The notes under the pieces: model-generated
What the model was told of the DNA's origin: nothing
What the model saw: only the letters and a program-made list of their open reading frames with translations
Databases searched by the model: none
Virus record (IMG/VR): IMGVR_UViG_3300020465_000992
Location: 1 to 23,919 of that record
Direction: 5' to 3' (one strand)
Length of the DNA stretch: 23,919 bases
Origin: a virus
In this document: positions 5,495 to 10,793 of the stretch, in pieces
How positions within the stretch are numbered: position 1 is the stretch's first letter
Layout: each line of letters starts with the position of its first letter
Translations under genes and position numbers: made by a program

Positions 5495-6024
5495 TAATTT
5501 CTAAGTTTAGAATGAACGGCATCTTTAATTTGATTATAATCAGAAGCTTCACCACCGTCATCCCCATAAAAGACCTCATCATATCCAGATCTTTCAAGAA
5601 TCTTATTTTTAATTTCTAACTGACGTTTCTCTCTTTGTATTCTGCGGAGAAATGCGTAATGTATAATTTGCGTAAAGTAAGCAAAAGGATTTTTGGATTT
5701 CTCAGGATCAAAGTTATGTATGTATTGAACGCAATTTTCGATTCCATCTGAAATCATATCCTCCTTGAACATGTAGTTAACAAAATTTGGTTTAAACGAT
5801 AAATGATTTGCAATCTTTAAAAAACAATCACCAATGTAACGAGGAATAACTGGTTTAGTATCCCATGAAGATGCTCTACCTGCCTTATCTGGTGGTTCAC
5901 CAAATTTCCTAATATAAGTAATCTCTACATCTTCACGATATCGAATCAATGCAGCAAGAAATTCTTTATTGTTAACATAGTGTTCAGACCTTTTTCGTTT
6001 AGCCATAGGTTTTATAATTGCCAT
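5494..6024 (-). CDS. gp55: gp55 sigma factor for late transcription
   Basis: This is the T4 gp55 homologue, the small sigma-like factor that directs host RNA polymerase to phage late promoters (TATAAATA-type -10 boxes), normally with gp33 and the gp45 sliding clamp. The region NFDPEKSKNPFAYFTQIIHYAFLRRIQREKRQ (about residues 108-139) is the recognisable sigma region 2-like core. RSEHYVNNKEF near the N terminus is typical of cyanophage versions. The length is 176 residues from ATG 6024; an in-frame ATG at 6006 would give a start MAKRKRSEH and is a credible alternative. Upstream lies a sigma70-type promoter (-35 at 6073-6078, -10 at 6050-6055). Candidate gp55 target boxes occur before many structural genes in this window. 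Confidence 0.92.
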   Translation of the reverse strand: MAIIKPMAKRKRSEHYVNNKEFLAALIRYREDVEITYIRKFGEPPDKAGRASSWDTKPVIPRYIGDCFLKIANHLSFKPNFVNYMFKEDMISDGIENCVQYIHNFDPEKSKNPFAYFTQIIHYAFLRRIQREKRQLEIKNKILERSGYDEVFYGDDGGEASDYNQIKDAVHSKLRN

Positions 6025-6049
6025 AAGTCATTATCACTATTATGTAGAT

Positions 6050-6078
6050 AGTATAACATTTATATTACGACTTGACAA
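6050..6078 (-). promoter_or_regulatory. Sigma70-type promoter for the gp55-47-46 operon
   Basis: On the minus strand TTGTCA (6078-6073) is followed by a 17-nt spacer and TATACT (6055-6050). That is 5 of 6 matches to each sigma70 consensus box at the optimal spacing. Transcription would start near 6043, leaving a leader of about 20 nt before the gp55 ATG at 6024. It would make gp55 and the recombination genes independent of the late programme. The call rests on pattern only. Confidence 0.6.
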
Positions 6079-6080
6079 GT
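6070..6080. repeat. 11-bp palindrome overlapping the -35 elements
   Basis: acttg-a-caagt is a perfect 5-bp inverted repeat around one central base. It contains the -35 hexamer of the minus-strand promoter (6078-6073) and, on the plus strand, a perfect TTGACA (6072-6077). It could be an operator-like site or simply the shared -35 of two divergent promoters. Confidence 0.45.
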
Positions 6081-6099
6081 TTCAAAAACCGAGTAGAAT
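6072..6099 (+). promoter_or_regulatory. Candidate plus-strand sigma70 promoter, antisense to the gene order
   Basis: TTGACA (6072-6077, exact consensus), a 16-nt spacer, and TAGAAT (6094-6099, 5 of 6). A transcript would start near 6106 and run antisense into the 137-aa gene and uvsW. No plus-strand gene lies downstream, so the product would be a non-coding or antisense RNA. By hexamer match it is better than the sense promoter beside it, but AT-rich phage DNA produces chance matches. Confidence 0.4.
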
Positions 6100-6127
6100 A
6101 ACCTTTGTGGAGGTTCAAGGAAAGGTA

Positions 6128-6541
6128 TTAGCTATTTTTACTATTCTTATTAGGATTAAATTTATATAATTTTTCTAAAATATCTTTAGCATCATGAACA
6201 TTTGATATATATCCCATCTTTTTAGTTATCTTTGGTTGACCATTTCTTTGTCTAGCTGAATCTTGAACAAATTGTTGATACATATTAATCATAGTAAGAT
6301 CAGAAGATTCTGACAAGGTTAATACATCTGAAAGATTAATAATAAACATATCTTCATGAGTAGTTTTTAACCAGGGTTCTACTTTATAACCCACTATACC
6401 ACCTCTTGATTTAAGTTCAACAATAGTAATAGGATTAGAAATTATTAACATAGTTCTATCTTCTTCTTCAGACGCTGCTACTTTTGCAAATACCTCTTCA
6501 CCATTTTTGAATTTAATTGTTGCGTAGAAATCGTCTTCCAT
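6128..6541 (-). CDS. Conserved-looking hypothetical protein (137 aa) between uvsW and gp55
   Basis: This is a soluble 137-residue protein of unknown function. The N-terminal half alternates short hydrophobic strands and polar turns (FYATIKFKNGEEVFAKVAAS, TMLIISNPITIVELKSRG, FIINLSDVLTLSESSD). The pattern is reminiscent of a small Sm-like beta barrel, but that is inference from spacing, not a recognised motif. The C-terminal part is helical and ends in an Asn/Lys-rich tail (NPNKNSKNS). Its ATG at 6541 sits in a TAATG overlap with the uvsW stop, so it is translationally coupled to uvsW. It is the last gene before the non-coding interval with the gp55 promoter. A role alongside UvsW in nucleic-acid handling is plausible but not shown. 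Confidence 0.75.
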   Translation of the reverse strand: MEDDFYATIKFKNGEEVFAKVAASEEEDRTMLIISNPITIVELKSRGGIVGYKVEPWLKTTHEDMFIINLSDVLTLSESSDLTMINMYQQFVQDSARQRNGQPKITKKMGYISNVHDAKDILEKLYKFNPNKNSKNS

Positions 6542-8022
6542 TATTTGTCTCCTTTAAGTTGTATTGTAATAATTTCATAATTAAAATTCTCTTCGTTGTA
6601 TATTTTAATACGTTCTATAAGATGATTTAATGTATAATTTTTTCTAGACTTTTGAGAACAATCATCGGCAATATCATATAGAATGGCTTTAATCTTATTT
6701 GAACTTTTTCTAAGAACTCGGCCAATTGATTGAAGATTTCTAATTCGTGATTTTGAAGGAGAAGCAAAAATGATATTATGGAGGTTCTTAATATTGATTC
6801 CTGTACTGAAAGTACCATATGAAGCAACAATAATTGCATTTCTTTCTTGCTCCGTGATTTCACGAACCAATTCTCTTTCTTCAGCATCTACTCCACCATG
6901 AATGAAGAAGACTTTTCTATCACCTTGTTTATTAGTATTTATTAAATCGTATAGTATCGCACCGTGGGTTTCTACTCTACTATACAATATAAGACTATTT
7001 CCTTTTAAATCTAATGCAAGGTTAGTAATAAATCTATTCCTTTGCTCATGACTTATTAAATATTCAATTTCATTTTGATATGTTTCAAATTTTTGAGGAG
7101 GATGTTTTAGTATAAGACATTGAATATCTAATTGAGAAAGATGCCCTTGTCTCATTAACTCTTCTGTTTTTGTGACTTTATATGAAGGGCCAAATAATCC
7201 TTCTAAGACCCATTTATGCGTCTGTGTGCCGTCTAAAGTTCCAGTAAATCCAAATCTATACTTAGCATGATGTAACTTTGTCATTATAGATATTAATGAC
7301 TTACTTTTAAATAGGTGAGCTTCATCTCCTATAATTACATTATAGTCTTCAAAAAATTGTTTTTCTAATTTATAAACAGATTGCCATGTAGTAATGGTAA
7401 CTGGAAGTTGATTATTTTTTTCTTTACCTGAATATATGCGGTGGCAAAATGACTCAGAATCCCAACCATAATCCTGAAAATCCTTATACATCTGCTCTAC
7501 GAGAGATGTCGTCGGAACAACTAGAAGTATTTTTTGCTGCTGCTCTATGTAATACCTTACAAGAGAATAAATCATCAATGATTTTCCTGACGCAGTTGGT
7601 GATATCAATAGTCTTCTATTGTGCTTTAGAGCATCGCATACTCCCTCAACTTGGTATTTCCTGGGAGAAATTGAGCAAATAGATTTCATATAATCTTTTA
7701 CACCTTCATATGAAATCCCTCCATTTTCCTCATAAGGGGTTCCATAATATTCATTGTCTATAAATTTATAACTATAATCATGCCTATTACAAAAAGAAAT
7801 AATTCTATCTAATAGTCCAACATATATCCTCTTTGATCTAAGATCAAATAAATGTATCTCTCCGTTCCAATTGCGATTTCTGTATTGAGGCATAAACTTT
7901 GCCCCTTCAACTTGAAAAGTAAAATGATCCCTCAGTTCATACTCAATATGAGGTTCAGCATTTACTTTTAAAAATACTTCATTAGCTTTGGATATAACAA
8001 CATTGGCAGTTGTATCAATCAC
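6541..8022 (-). CDS. uvsW: UvsW DNA/RNA helicase
   Basis: This is the T4 UvsW homologue (493 residues against 503), a superfamily 2 helicase that unwinds R-loops and branch-migrates recombination intermediates. In T4 it shuts off origin-dependent replication late in infection. After an N-terminal DNA-binding domain (residues 1-100, including HFTFQVEGAKFMPQYRNRNWNG) come Walker A SPTASGKS (141-148), motif Ia VVPTTSLVEQM, the DEAH box (233-236), motif III GFTGTLDG, and motif VI QSIGRVLRKS. The start at 8022 is GTG, not ATG; no in-frame ATG lies near a plausible start. An AATAAATA late-type box at 8044-8051 lies 22 nt upstream, consistent with uvsW being a late gene in T4. Confidence 0.95.
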   Translation of the reverse strand: MIDTTANVVISKANEVFLKVNAEPHIEYELRDHFTFQVEGAKFMPQYRNRNWNGEIHLFDLRSKRIYVGLLDRIISFCNRHDYSYKFIDNEYYGTPYEENGGISYEGVKDYMKSICSISPRKYQVEGVCDALKHNRRLLISPTASGKSLMIYSLVRYYIEQQQKILLVVPTTSLVEQMYKDFQDYGWDSESFCHRIYSGKEKNNQLPVTITTWQSVYKLEKQFFEDYNVIIGDEAHLFKSKSLISIMTKLHHAKYRFGFTGTLDGTQTHKWVLEGLFGPSYKVTKTEELMRQGHLSQLDIQCLILKHPPQKFETYQNEIEYLISHEQRNRFITNLALDLKGNSLILYSRVETHGAILYDLINTNKQGDRKVFFIHGGVDAEERELVREITEQERNAIIVASYGTFSTGINIKNLHNIIFASPSKSRIRNLQSIGRVLRKSSNKIKAILYDIADDCSQKSRKNYTLNHLIERIKIYNEENFNYEIITIQLKGDK

Positions 8023-8043: not shown

Positions 8044-8051
8044 TATTTATT
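8044..8051 (-). promoter_or_regulatory. Late-type promoter box AATAAATA before uvsW
   Basis: The minus strand reads AATAAATA in the uvsY-uvsW gap, 7 of 8 matches to the T4 late consensus TATAAATA and 22 nt before the GTG start. T4 uvsW is transcribed from a late promoter, so the placement makes sense. Confidence 0.5.
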
Positions 8052-9526: not shown

Positions 9527-10654
9527 TTAGTTCATACCATCATACCATGTCTTAAATGAGTATGCTGGCCATTGACCATATAATTTTGGTTGAGTGCATC
9601 CACCATATAACTGAGGTAATACATCATCCCAGTTTTTTGTCTTAGCATGATTTAAAAACATATTAAAGTCTTCATCCTCAAAAGTAAGTGTTTTTGCATA
9701 ATCCCAAAAAGGTGTATCATATTTTGATCCAAACTGATAATGCCAAAGAACAAAATTTTGTAGTTGTTTAATATACTTTCTAATATCACCAACAACATAA
9801 TCACGATTAAATTTACCTGGCATCAAATAATCAAATACTGCTCTAACTAATTCAATATAAACTTGTGTTGATGAAGATTCTAATGGTTCTAAGAAAAATA
9901 ATCTATTACCATTAAGAACTATTCTATCATCAACAATTGGATTCTTGGCAACATAATTTTTATAAGAAATATACTTTGTTACTTCAACATCAAACATATT
10001 CTTTAAATTAAGTTCTGCTTCATCCTTAGATGTTATATCACTATTATAACAATATCCAACACAATAGTCATGTGATGGTGATTTATAATTTGTAGGAATT
10101 ACAAATGCCCATCCATCAGGAGTTGCAACATGTCTGCTCCATGAATTTTTTGCAGTATACCAATTAGGTTTTGCCAATATACATGCATTTGTTGGATTTT
10201 TTAATTCTTCATAATCTTTATAGTCACTTGGTTTACCTCTACAATCAAAAATATAATCAGAATCAATTTTATCAACATCTAGAACATCATCATATTTTAC
10301 TTTAAAACGACCAGATGTTAATATACTTGCTTGCATTTCCCAAGGGCAGTAATGCATAGCCATTCTATCTGGAGGAAATGAATGGAATAATTTATCATTT
10401 ACTTTACCCCATCCTTCATATAATATTCCACTTTTAAAAGTAGCATTAATTTTATTATCATACCAATTAAATCCAGTACCAGCCCATAACAAACCAGGTG
10501 GTTCTACAACTGTTGCTTGACCAACTCTTTCTGGAGGTATATCTGGATTATATACTAATTCAACTTCATATTCTGATTGTCTTCCATACCAAGCACAATA
10601 CAATGCTGTAAAACATCCTGCATTACCACCACCAACTACTGTAATTTTTTTCAT
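9527..10654 (-). CDS. Flavin-dependent (tryptophan-type) halogenase
   Basis: This FAD-dependent halogenase-family protein probably uses FADH2, O2 and halide to make HOX, which is delivered to the substrate by a lysine. The FAD-binding loop GGGNAG is at residues 8-13. VGQATVVEPP (44-53) fits the GEATVP segment. Lys74 in ATFKSGILYEGW lines up with the catalytic Lys of PrnA/RebH (GAFKAAIKFVNW). The diagnostic WxWxIP motif is present as GWAFVIP (181-187; second Trp replaced by Phe), and EPLESSS (256-262) supplies the expected Glu259. At 375 residues it is much shorter than PrnA (about 540), so the substrate cap is reduced. The start at 10654 (MKKITVVGGG) was chosen over an in-frame ATG at 10711 that lies inside the tRNA gene. 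The substrate is unknown. Confidence 0.85.
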   Translation of the reverse strand: MKKITVVGGGNAGCFTALYCAWYGRQSEYEVELVYNPDIPPERVGQATVVEPPGLLWAGTGFNWYDNKINATFKSGILYEGWGKVNDKLFHSFPPDRMAMHYCPWEMQASILTSGRFKVKYDDVLDVDKIDSDYIFDCRGKPSDYKDYEELKNPTNACILAKPNWYTAKNSWSRHVATPDGWAFVIPTNYKSPSHDYCVGYCYNSDITSKDEAELNLKNMFDVEVTKYISYKNYVAKNPIVDDRIVLNGNRLFFLEPLESSSTQVYIELVRAVFDYLMPGKFNRDYVVGDIRKYIKQLQNFVLWHYQFGSKYDTPFWDYAKTLTFEDEDFNMFLNHAKTKNWDDVLPQLYGGCTQPKLYGQWPAYSFKTWYDGMN

Positions 10655-10658
10655 AATA

Positions 10659-10732
10659 CGGGGTATACGGGACTTGAACCCGTGATCTCTGCCGTGACAG
10701 GGCAGCGTCATAAACCACTAGACCAATACCCC
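10659..10732 (-). tRNA. tRNA-Asp (anticodon GTC)
   Basis: The minus strand folds into a full cloverleaf: acceptor stem GGGGTAT/ATACCCC; D-stem GTC/GAC; anticodon stem CTGCC/GGCAG with the 7-base loop CTGTCAC (anticodon GTC); T-stem ACGGG/CCCGT with loop TTCAAGT. The base after the acceptor stem is G, the discriminator G73 expected for tRNA-Asp. CCA is not encoded. Only 4 nt separate the tRNA from the halogenase ATG. Confidence 0.96.
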
Positions 10733-10760: not shown

Positions 10761-10793
10761 AAAAAAAGACCCCCTGCAAGAGGAGGTCTTTGA
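10761..10793 (-). terminator. Rho-independent terminator after gp23
   Basis: The minus strand forms a 9-bp GC-rich stem, AAGACCTCC paired with GGGGGTCTT (one G-U pair), around a 7-nt loop TCTTGCA, followed by a run of seven T. It sits about 20 nt after the gp23 stop. It would end the late head-tail transcript before the tRNA. Confidence 0.9.

Follow-up and report, generated by a model that had tools for sequence, protein, structure and literature searches.

The 103-nt gap upstream of gp55 (positions 6025-6127 by direct sequence reading) in the window, as we call the whole 23,919-nt stretch of viral DNA that was analysed, contains two σ70-type promoter elements facing away from each other, one reading into gp55 and the other in the opposite direction. 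Both elements are very probably real promoters, as judged from the sequence comparisons presented below. Since almost all of the relatives checked retain the wrong-way (plus-strand) promoter, it is very likely to be functional rather than a chance occurrence. The coordinates of the features discussed below are collected in Table 1.

Table 1. Annotated and predicted features of the gp55-uvsW region (positions are those of the window).
Feature	Positions	Strand	Basis and remarks
gp55, late σ factor, 176 aa	5494..6024	-	PHROG 234, E=1e-63
Predicted sense (gp55) σ70-type promoter	6050..6078	-	Direct reading, consensus scan; predicted start near 6043
ACTTGACAAGT, inverted repeat containing both -35 boxes	6070..6080	.	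Direct reading
Predicted antisense promoter	6072..6099	+	Direct reading, consensus scan; predicted start near 6105-6107
AACCTTTGTGGAGGTT, element conserved at the start site of the antisense promoter	6100..6115	+	Column conservation
137-aa protein of the "methylamine utilization" family; first of the two genes that the antisense promoter would read against	6128..6541	-	PHROG 471
uvsW helicase; second of the genes that the antisense promoter would read against	6541..8022	-	PHROG 16, E=1e-114
ATAAATA, motif resembling a late promoter, directly before uvsW	8044..8050	-	Motif match

The sense promoter consists of a TTGTCA -35 element (6078-6073) and a TATACT -10 element (6055-6050) separated by a 17-nt spacer on the minus strand; its -10 element is of the extended type, with a TG one base ahead (TGtTATACT). 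On the plus strand, a TTGACA -35 element (6072-6077) is followed, after a 16-nt spacer, by a TAGAAT -10 element (6094-6099). The inverted repeat that holds both -35 boxes is composed of two 5-bp arms flanking one central base. Direct reading revealed no MotA box (TGCTT-type) at -30, where the TTGTCA and TTGACA boxes are found instead. The plus-strand site ranked first in the consensus scan of the window, with 11 of 12 matches. Since the total number of promoter-like sites (99) is close to that expected from shuffled sequences (86 ± 8.5), i.e., near chance, the evidence that can be drawn from this single sequence is weak. The divergent pair of σ70-type promoters had been proposed in the initial annotation of the window, and both the reading of the sequence and conservation across Kyanoviridae confirmed it. 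The listing of open reading frames also agrees with the earlier statement that every gene of the window is on the minus strand, which carries all gene-like frames, including uvsY, identified by its PHROG match. As had been suggested, an RNA made from the plus-strand promoter would run antisense to both the 137-aa gene and uvsW, and this fits the strands and the order of the neighboring genes.

For the comparison, 178 loci of IMG/VR and of phage records were read across the gap and then reduced to 96 non-redundant cyanophage loci. Because the loci were picked by similarity to the gp55 and 137-aa proteins of the window, with a spread of isolates added, the percentages describe the sampled loci. 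A strict plus-strand pattern, TTGACA-N16/17-TAnAAT, was found in 84 of the 96 non-redundant relatives and a relaxed one in 95, while dinucleotide shuffles yielded such promoters in 0.04% (strict) and 0.5% (relaxed) of cases. The sense promoter was present in 90/96 relatives, and both promoters were kept in six further isolates (S-CAM1, P-SSM4, P-HM1, S-RSM4, Syn30 and P-RSM1). When the relatives were checked for loss of the plus-strand boxes with retention of the minus-strand promoter, only S-H34, which has a very long gp55 branch, was without a clear plus-strand promoter, and one further locus (L018) had a weaker plus-strand -10 element. The pair was absent from the non-cyanobacterial relatives compared, Caulobacter phage Cr30 and the T4 relative RB3. 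In eight complete genomes, the strict pattern occurs 2-11 times per genome on the gene strand; on the reverse strand it occurs once in seven of them and twice in S-SM2, and the reverse-strand site common to all eight is the one in the gp55 gap.

In most loci, the -35 boxes of the two promoters overlap as TTGTCAA, so that the sense box reads TTGTCA and the plus-strand box is a perfect TTGACA. The sense -35 element was TTGTCA in 76/76 of the shared cases, and it is therefore that the plus strand gets a perfect TTGACA in them. The full 11-bp palindrome was perfect in 29/96 relatives only, the recurring part being the 7-bp core TTGTCAA. Thus, the earlier claim that both -35 boxes sit in one 11-bp palindrome holds for the window but not as a conserved feature. 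Nor is a shared palindromic -35 element, as proposed at the time, essential, since in many lineages the promoters are 7-19 bp apart or interleaved. Separate -35 boxes were found in 23 out of 103 loci, among them those of S-PM2, S-RSM4, S-WAM2, S-RIM2, S-RIM8, S-RIM12, S-RIM50, ACG-2014a and ACG-2014d as well as several IMG/VR loci nested inside groups that otherwise share the boxes. In such loci, the plus-strand promoter retains TTGACA and the 16-17-nt spacing, and almost all of them have a distinct sense -35 element (TTGACA, TTGCCA, TTGGCA, TTGACG or TTGTCA) 16-17 nt from the sense -10 element. On the gp55 tree, the shared palindromic -35 was repeatedly lost or gained, with at least 7 (counting well-supported branches) to 10 changes between the shared and separate states, through which the plus-strand promoter persists. 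The comparison of loci shows that the two predicted promoters are independent of each other, and that the shared palindrome is a common arrangement and no requirement.

Column conservation runs on past the plus-strand -10 element (AACC..TTGT..GGTT). The AACCTTTGTnGAGGTT-like element located there, directly after the -10 hexamer, is an imperfect inverted repeat, AACCT-N6-AGGTT, with an HMM score of 46 bits in the window. The same element is present at some forward-strand promoters, e.g., in S-SM2 (43249), S-PM2 (162737), S-RIM12 (13780 and 48952) and SynMITS9220M01 (36828), and what follows these promoters are small genes of unknown function or a CpeT-like gene. Among the IMG/VR matches listed, the full element was matched exactly 80 times: 59 times in the gp55 gap, in antisense orientation, and 21 times elsewhere. 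In 19 of the latter, again among the matches listed, a same-direction open frame begins within 160 nt, and many of these frames resemble phrog_1653 or are small genes beside a thyX-like frame. Because the start-site element elsewhere mostly sits just upstream of genes, the plus-strand promoter is, by its sequence, a member of a cyanophage promoter class that expresses genes elsewhere. Early σ70-like promoters of cyanophages have the same TTGACA-N16/17-TAnAAT form, and one subset carries the same start-site element, ACCTTTGTnGAGGTT; elsewhere, however, they are mostly located directly upstream of genes and directed toward them, unlike the plus-strand promoter of the gap. From the σ70 form of the latter, and because these phages do not modify polymerase in the manner of T4 (PMC2984593), we infer that it is early in timing. 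A terminator or an RNA hairpin in the conserved start-site block could not be established, the stem being short and imperfect in variants (mean of 3.42 versus 3.20 with shuffled partners, a small excess). In nine loci (L243, L247, L259, L262, L273, L287, L289, L290 and L315), a promoter of the same class is located ahead of a small gene (MDKEKLKL...), which adjoins a thyX-like frame (MKPEVKLISVTPDAEKHMAYCARVSNP) in several of them.

The initial annotation treated uvsW as a late gene. A late-promoter motif was found upstream of uvsW in 86/102 loci, compared to 0 in a control window inside uvsW, and on this basis uvsW indeed looks like a late gene. A late motif (TATAAATA-like -10 element) was found in the gp55 gap in 13/102 loci only; as the motif is not conserved, a late promoter for gp55 was rejected. 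All seven ATAAATA matches of the window are on the minus strand, and such motifs are also found at gene junctions (13420, 15002, 19812 and 22018). In four loci (L006, L007, L034 and L081), a 10-bp hairpin (ACTCATAGC...GCTATGAGT) directly follows the uvsW late-promoter motif, ca. 1.88 kb downstream of the antisense -10 element and just before uvsW. In T4, the start regions of some late genes are hidden in read-through RNA by a hairpin, and the hairpin before uvsW could likewise mask the uvsW start region in such RNA.

In T4, a late promoter drives uvsW, and the helicase unwinds origin R-loops from which early replication is primed (PMC3016281), which makes it reasonable that uvsW should be silent early. 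In the model that fits the comparisons best, a timing device of the kind proposed in the initial annotation, the minus-strand early promoter would drive gp55, such that the late σ factor is made ahead of late transcription, and the plus-strand promoter would give rise to an antisense transcript running through the 137-aa gene into uvsW. During the phase of infection served by the host-type polymerase, this transcript would limit leaky expression of the late uvsW and 137-aa genes, either by collision or by RNA pairing, and the two promoters, with their overlapping or nearly overlapping -35 regions, would compete for polymerase. Once gp55 takes over, both early promoters would fall silent and uvsW would be transcribed from its late promoter. 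We infer here the production of the antisense RNA, its timing, the repression of uvsW and the competition between promoters; the model as a whole, with early antisense transcription set against late uvsW and promoter competition, has in our estimate about an even chance of being correct.

The predicted RNA was searched for features of its own. No plus-strand terminator was found between positions 6000 and 8100 of the window, nor was one conserved in relatives, and the antisense RNA is therefore without a defined end. Over the initial ~400 nt facing the 137-aa gene, synonymous conservation showed no excess, and so no specific RNA structure is indicated. A small plus-strand gene or leader near the start site was ruled out, since there is no conserved ATG: 83/102 loci have none within 12-70 nt, and the frames in the others are of 15 codons or fewer. 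If the RNA is made, its effect probably comes from simple complementarity or from the process of transcription itself.

Several other explanations of the conserved plus-strand promoter have to be weighed against the timing model. The plus-strand boxes could be an accidental by-product of a palindromic -35 element in AT-rich sequence, and the near-chance number of promoter-like sites in the AT-rich window would agree with this; yet their conservation in 95/96 relatives, the class-wide start-site element and the usually single strict reverse-strand site per genome make such an origin hardly credible. That the boxes merely echo the palindromic sense -35 element is excluded, because they are separate in 23/103 loci and the promoter persists through the 7-10 changes of state on the gp55 tree. 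Alternatively, both promoters may be active and the antisense RNA may be without effect on its target, the plus-strand promoter affecting gp55 through polymerase competition or supercoiling. The -35 boxes of the pair are never more than ~19 bp apart, even when separate, which is close enough for interference between polymerases, and there is no sign of constraint on the RNA. However, conservation reaches the start-site region, as it does at promoters upstream of genes elsewhere, and since it thus extends beyond the core promoter, productive initiation is suggested to matter; we view a role mainly for gp55 itself as possible but rather doubtful.

It is also unlikely that the antisense RNA protects the mRNA of the 137-aa gene and uvsW, e.g., from RNase E of the host, a mechanism suggested for an unrelated cyanophage. 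While the mechanism has been put forward for cyanophages, and antisense transcription has been seen in Kyanoviridae according to a passage of PMC10976474 that cites Stazic 2016, uvsW is apparently late and the antisense promoter is of the early type, and therefore there would be little time during which both RNAs are present. The divergent pair could, furthermore, be a replication origin, with R-loops priming leading strands both ways beside the gene of an R-loop helicase. T4 oriF and oriG do use promoter-derived R-loops that are removed by UvsW (PMC3016281), and there is one conserved reverse-strand promoter per genome, but the detrended cumulative GC skew of five genomes has no extremum at the site, a weak test when genes are nearly all on one strand. 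The skew minima are 14-21 kb from the site in four genomes and much further in S-PM2. We consider an origin at this position very unlikely. A combination of the two ideas, with the pair serving Kyanoviridae as a timing switch and at the same time as a bidirectional R-loop origin, where early transcription would prime replication and silence uvsW until gp55 is made, appears highly improbable.

Back-to-back divergent promoters with overlapping -35 regions are known in bacterial and phage regulation. The pair in the gp55 gap resembles them in that two σ70-type promoters face apart and are near enough to compete; it differs in that one of the two promoters does not face a gene of its own orientation and the shared palindromic -35 is optional. 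Phage antisense RNAs, like overlapping divergent promoters, are an already known kind. Antisense RNA CfrI of S-PM2, from the psbA/homing endonuclease region, likewise is an RNA of a lytic Kyanoviridae phage that opposes the phage's own genes (PMC2984593), and a promoter opposite to annotated genes is present here as well. However, CfrI comes from a different locus and was detected as RNA, whereas here it is a promoter that is shown, one conserved family-wide at the gp55-uvsW junction. T4 likewise combines a late helicase, with UvsW made from a late promoter (PMC3016281), and a late σ factor, the product of gene 55, that is needed early, but in its relative RB3 gp55 is in another gene context and there is no promoter pair. 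Cyanomyoviruses are, moreover, without the T4 polymerase-modifying genes and MotA, i.e., the MotA/Asi functions of T4 are lacking (PMC2984593). None of the papers searched deals with antisense transcription of cyanophage uvsW or with the gp55/uvsW promoter pair, and an earlier description is possible. In these phages, which abound in the ocean, early and late transcription are ordered without the polymerase-modifying proteins of T4, and an antisense promoter kept throughout the family between the genes of the late σ factor and the late helicase is a concrete candidate for a regulatory element. The promoter class with its conserved start-site element also opens a way into the early gene control of cyanophages.

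Opposite uvsW codons 114-191, the plus strand contains an open frame of 77 codons (7449-7682 of the window). The frame is open in 101 of 127 distinct relatives, with the ATG kept in 93%, and uvsW synonymous sites across it show about twice the conservation of those in the rest of uvsW (0.35 versus 0.17, p~0.001 uncorrected). Its stop codon is not conserved, many sense third positions vary freely, and it has no PHROG match. The conservation in this interval is probably driven by helicase motifs, and a hidden element there is still conceivable. The search of the window for known RNA families retrieved a tRNA only. The tRNA gene (10659-10732, minus strand) overlaps the 5′ end of the open reading frame at 9527-10711, and a strong 11-bp terminator-like hairpin (10765-10791, minus strand) is located just upstream of it.
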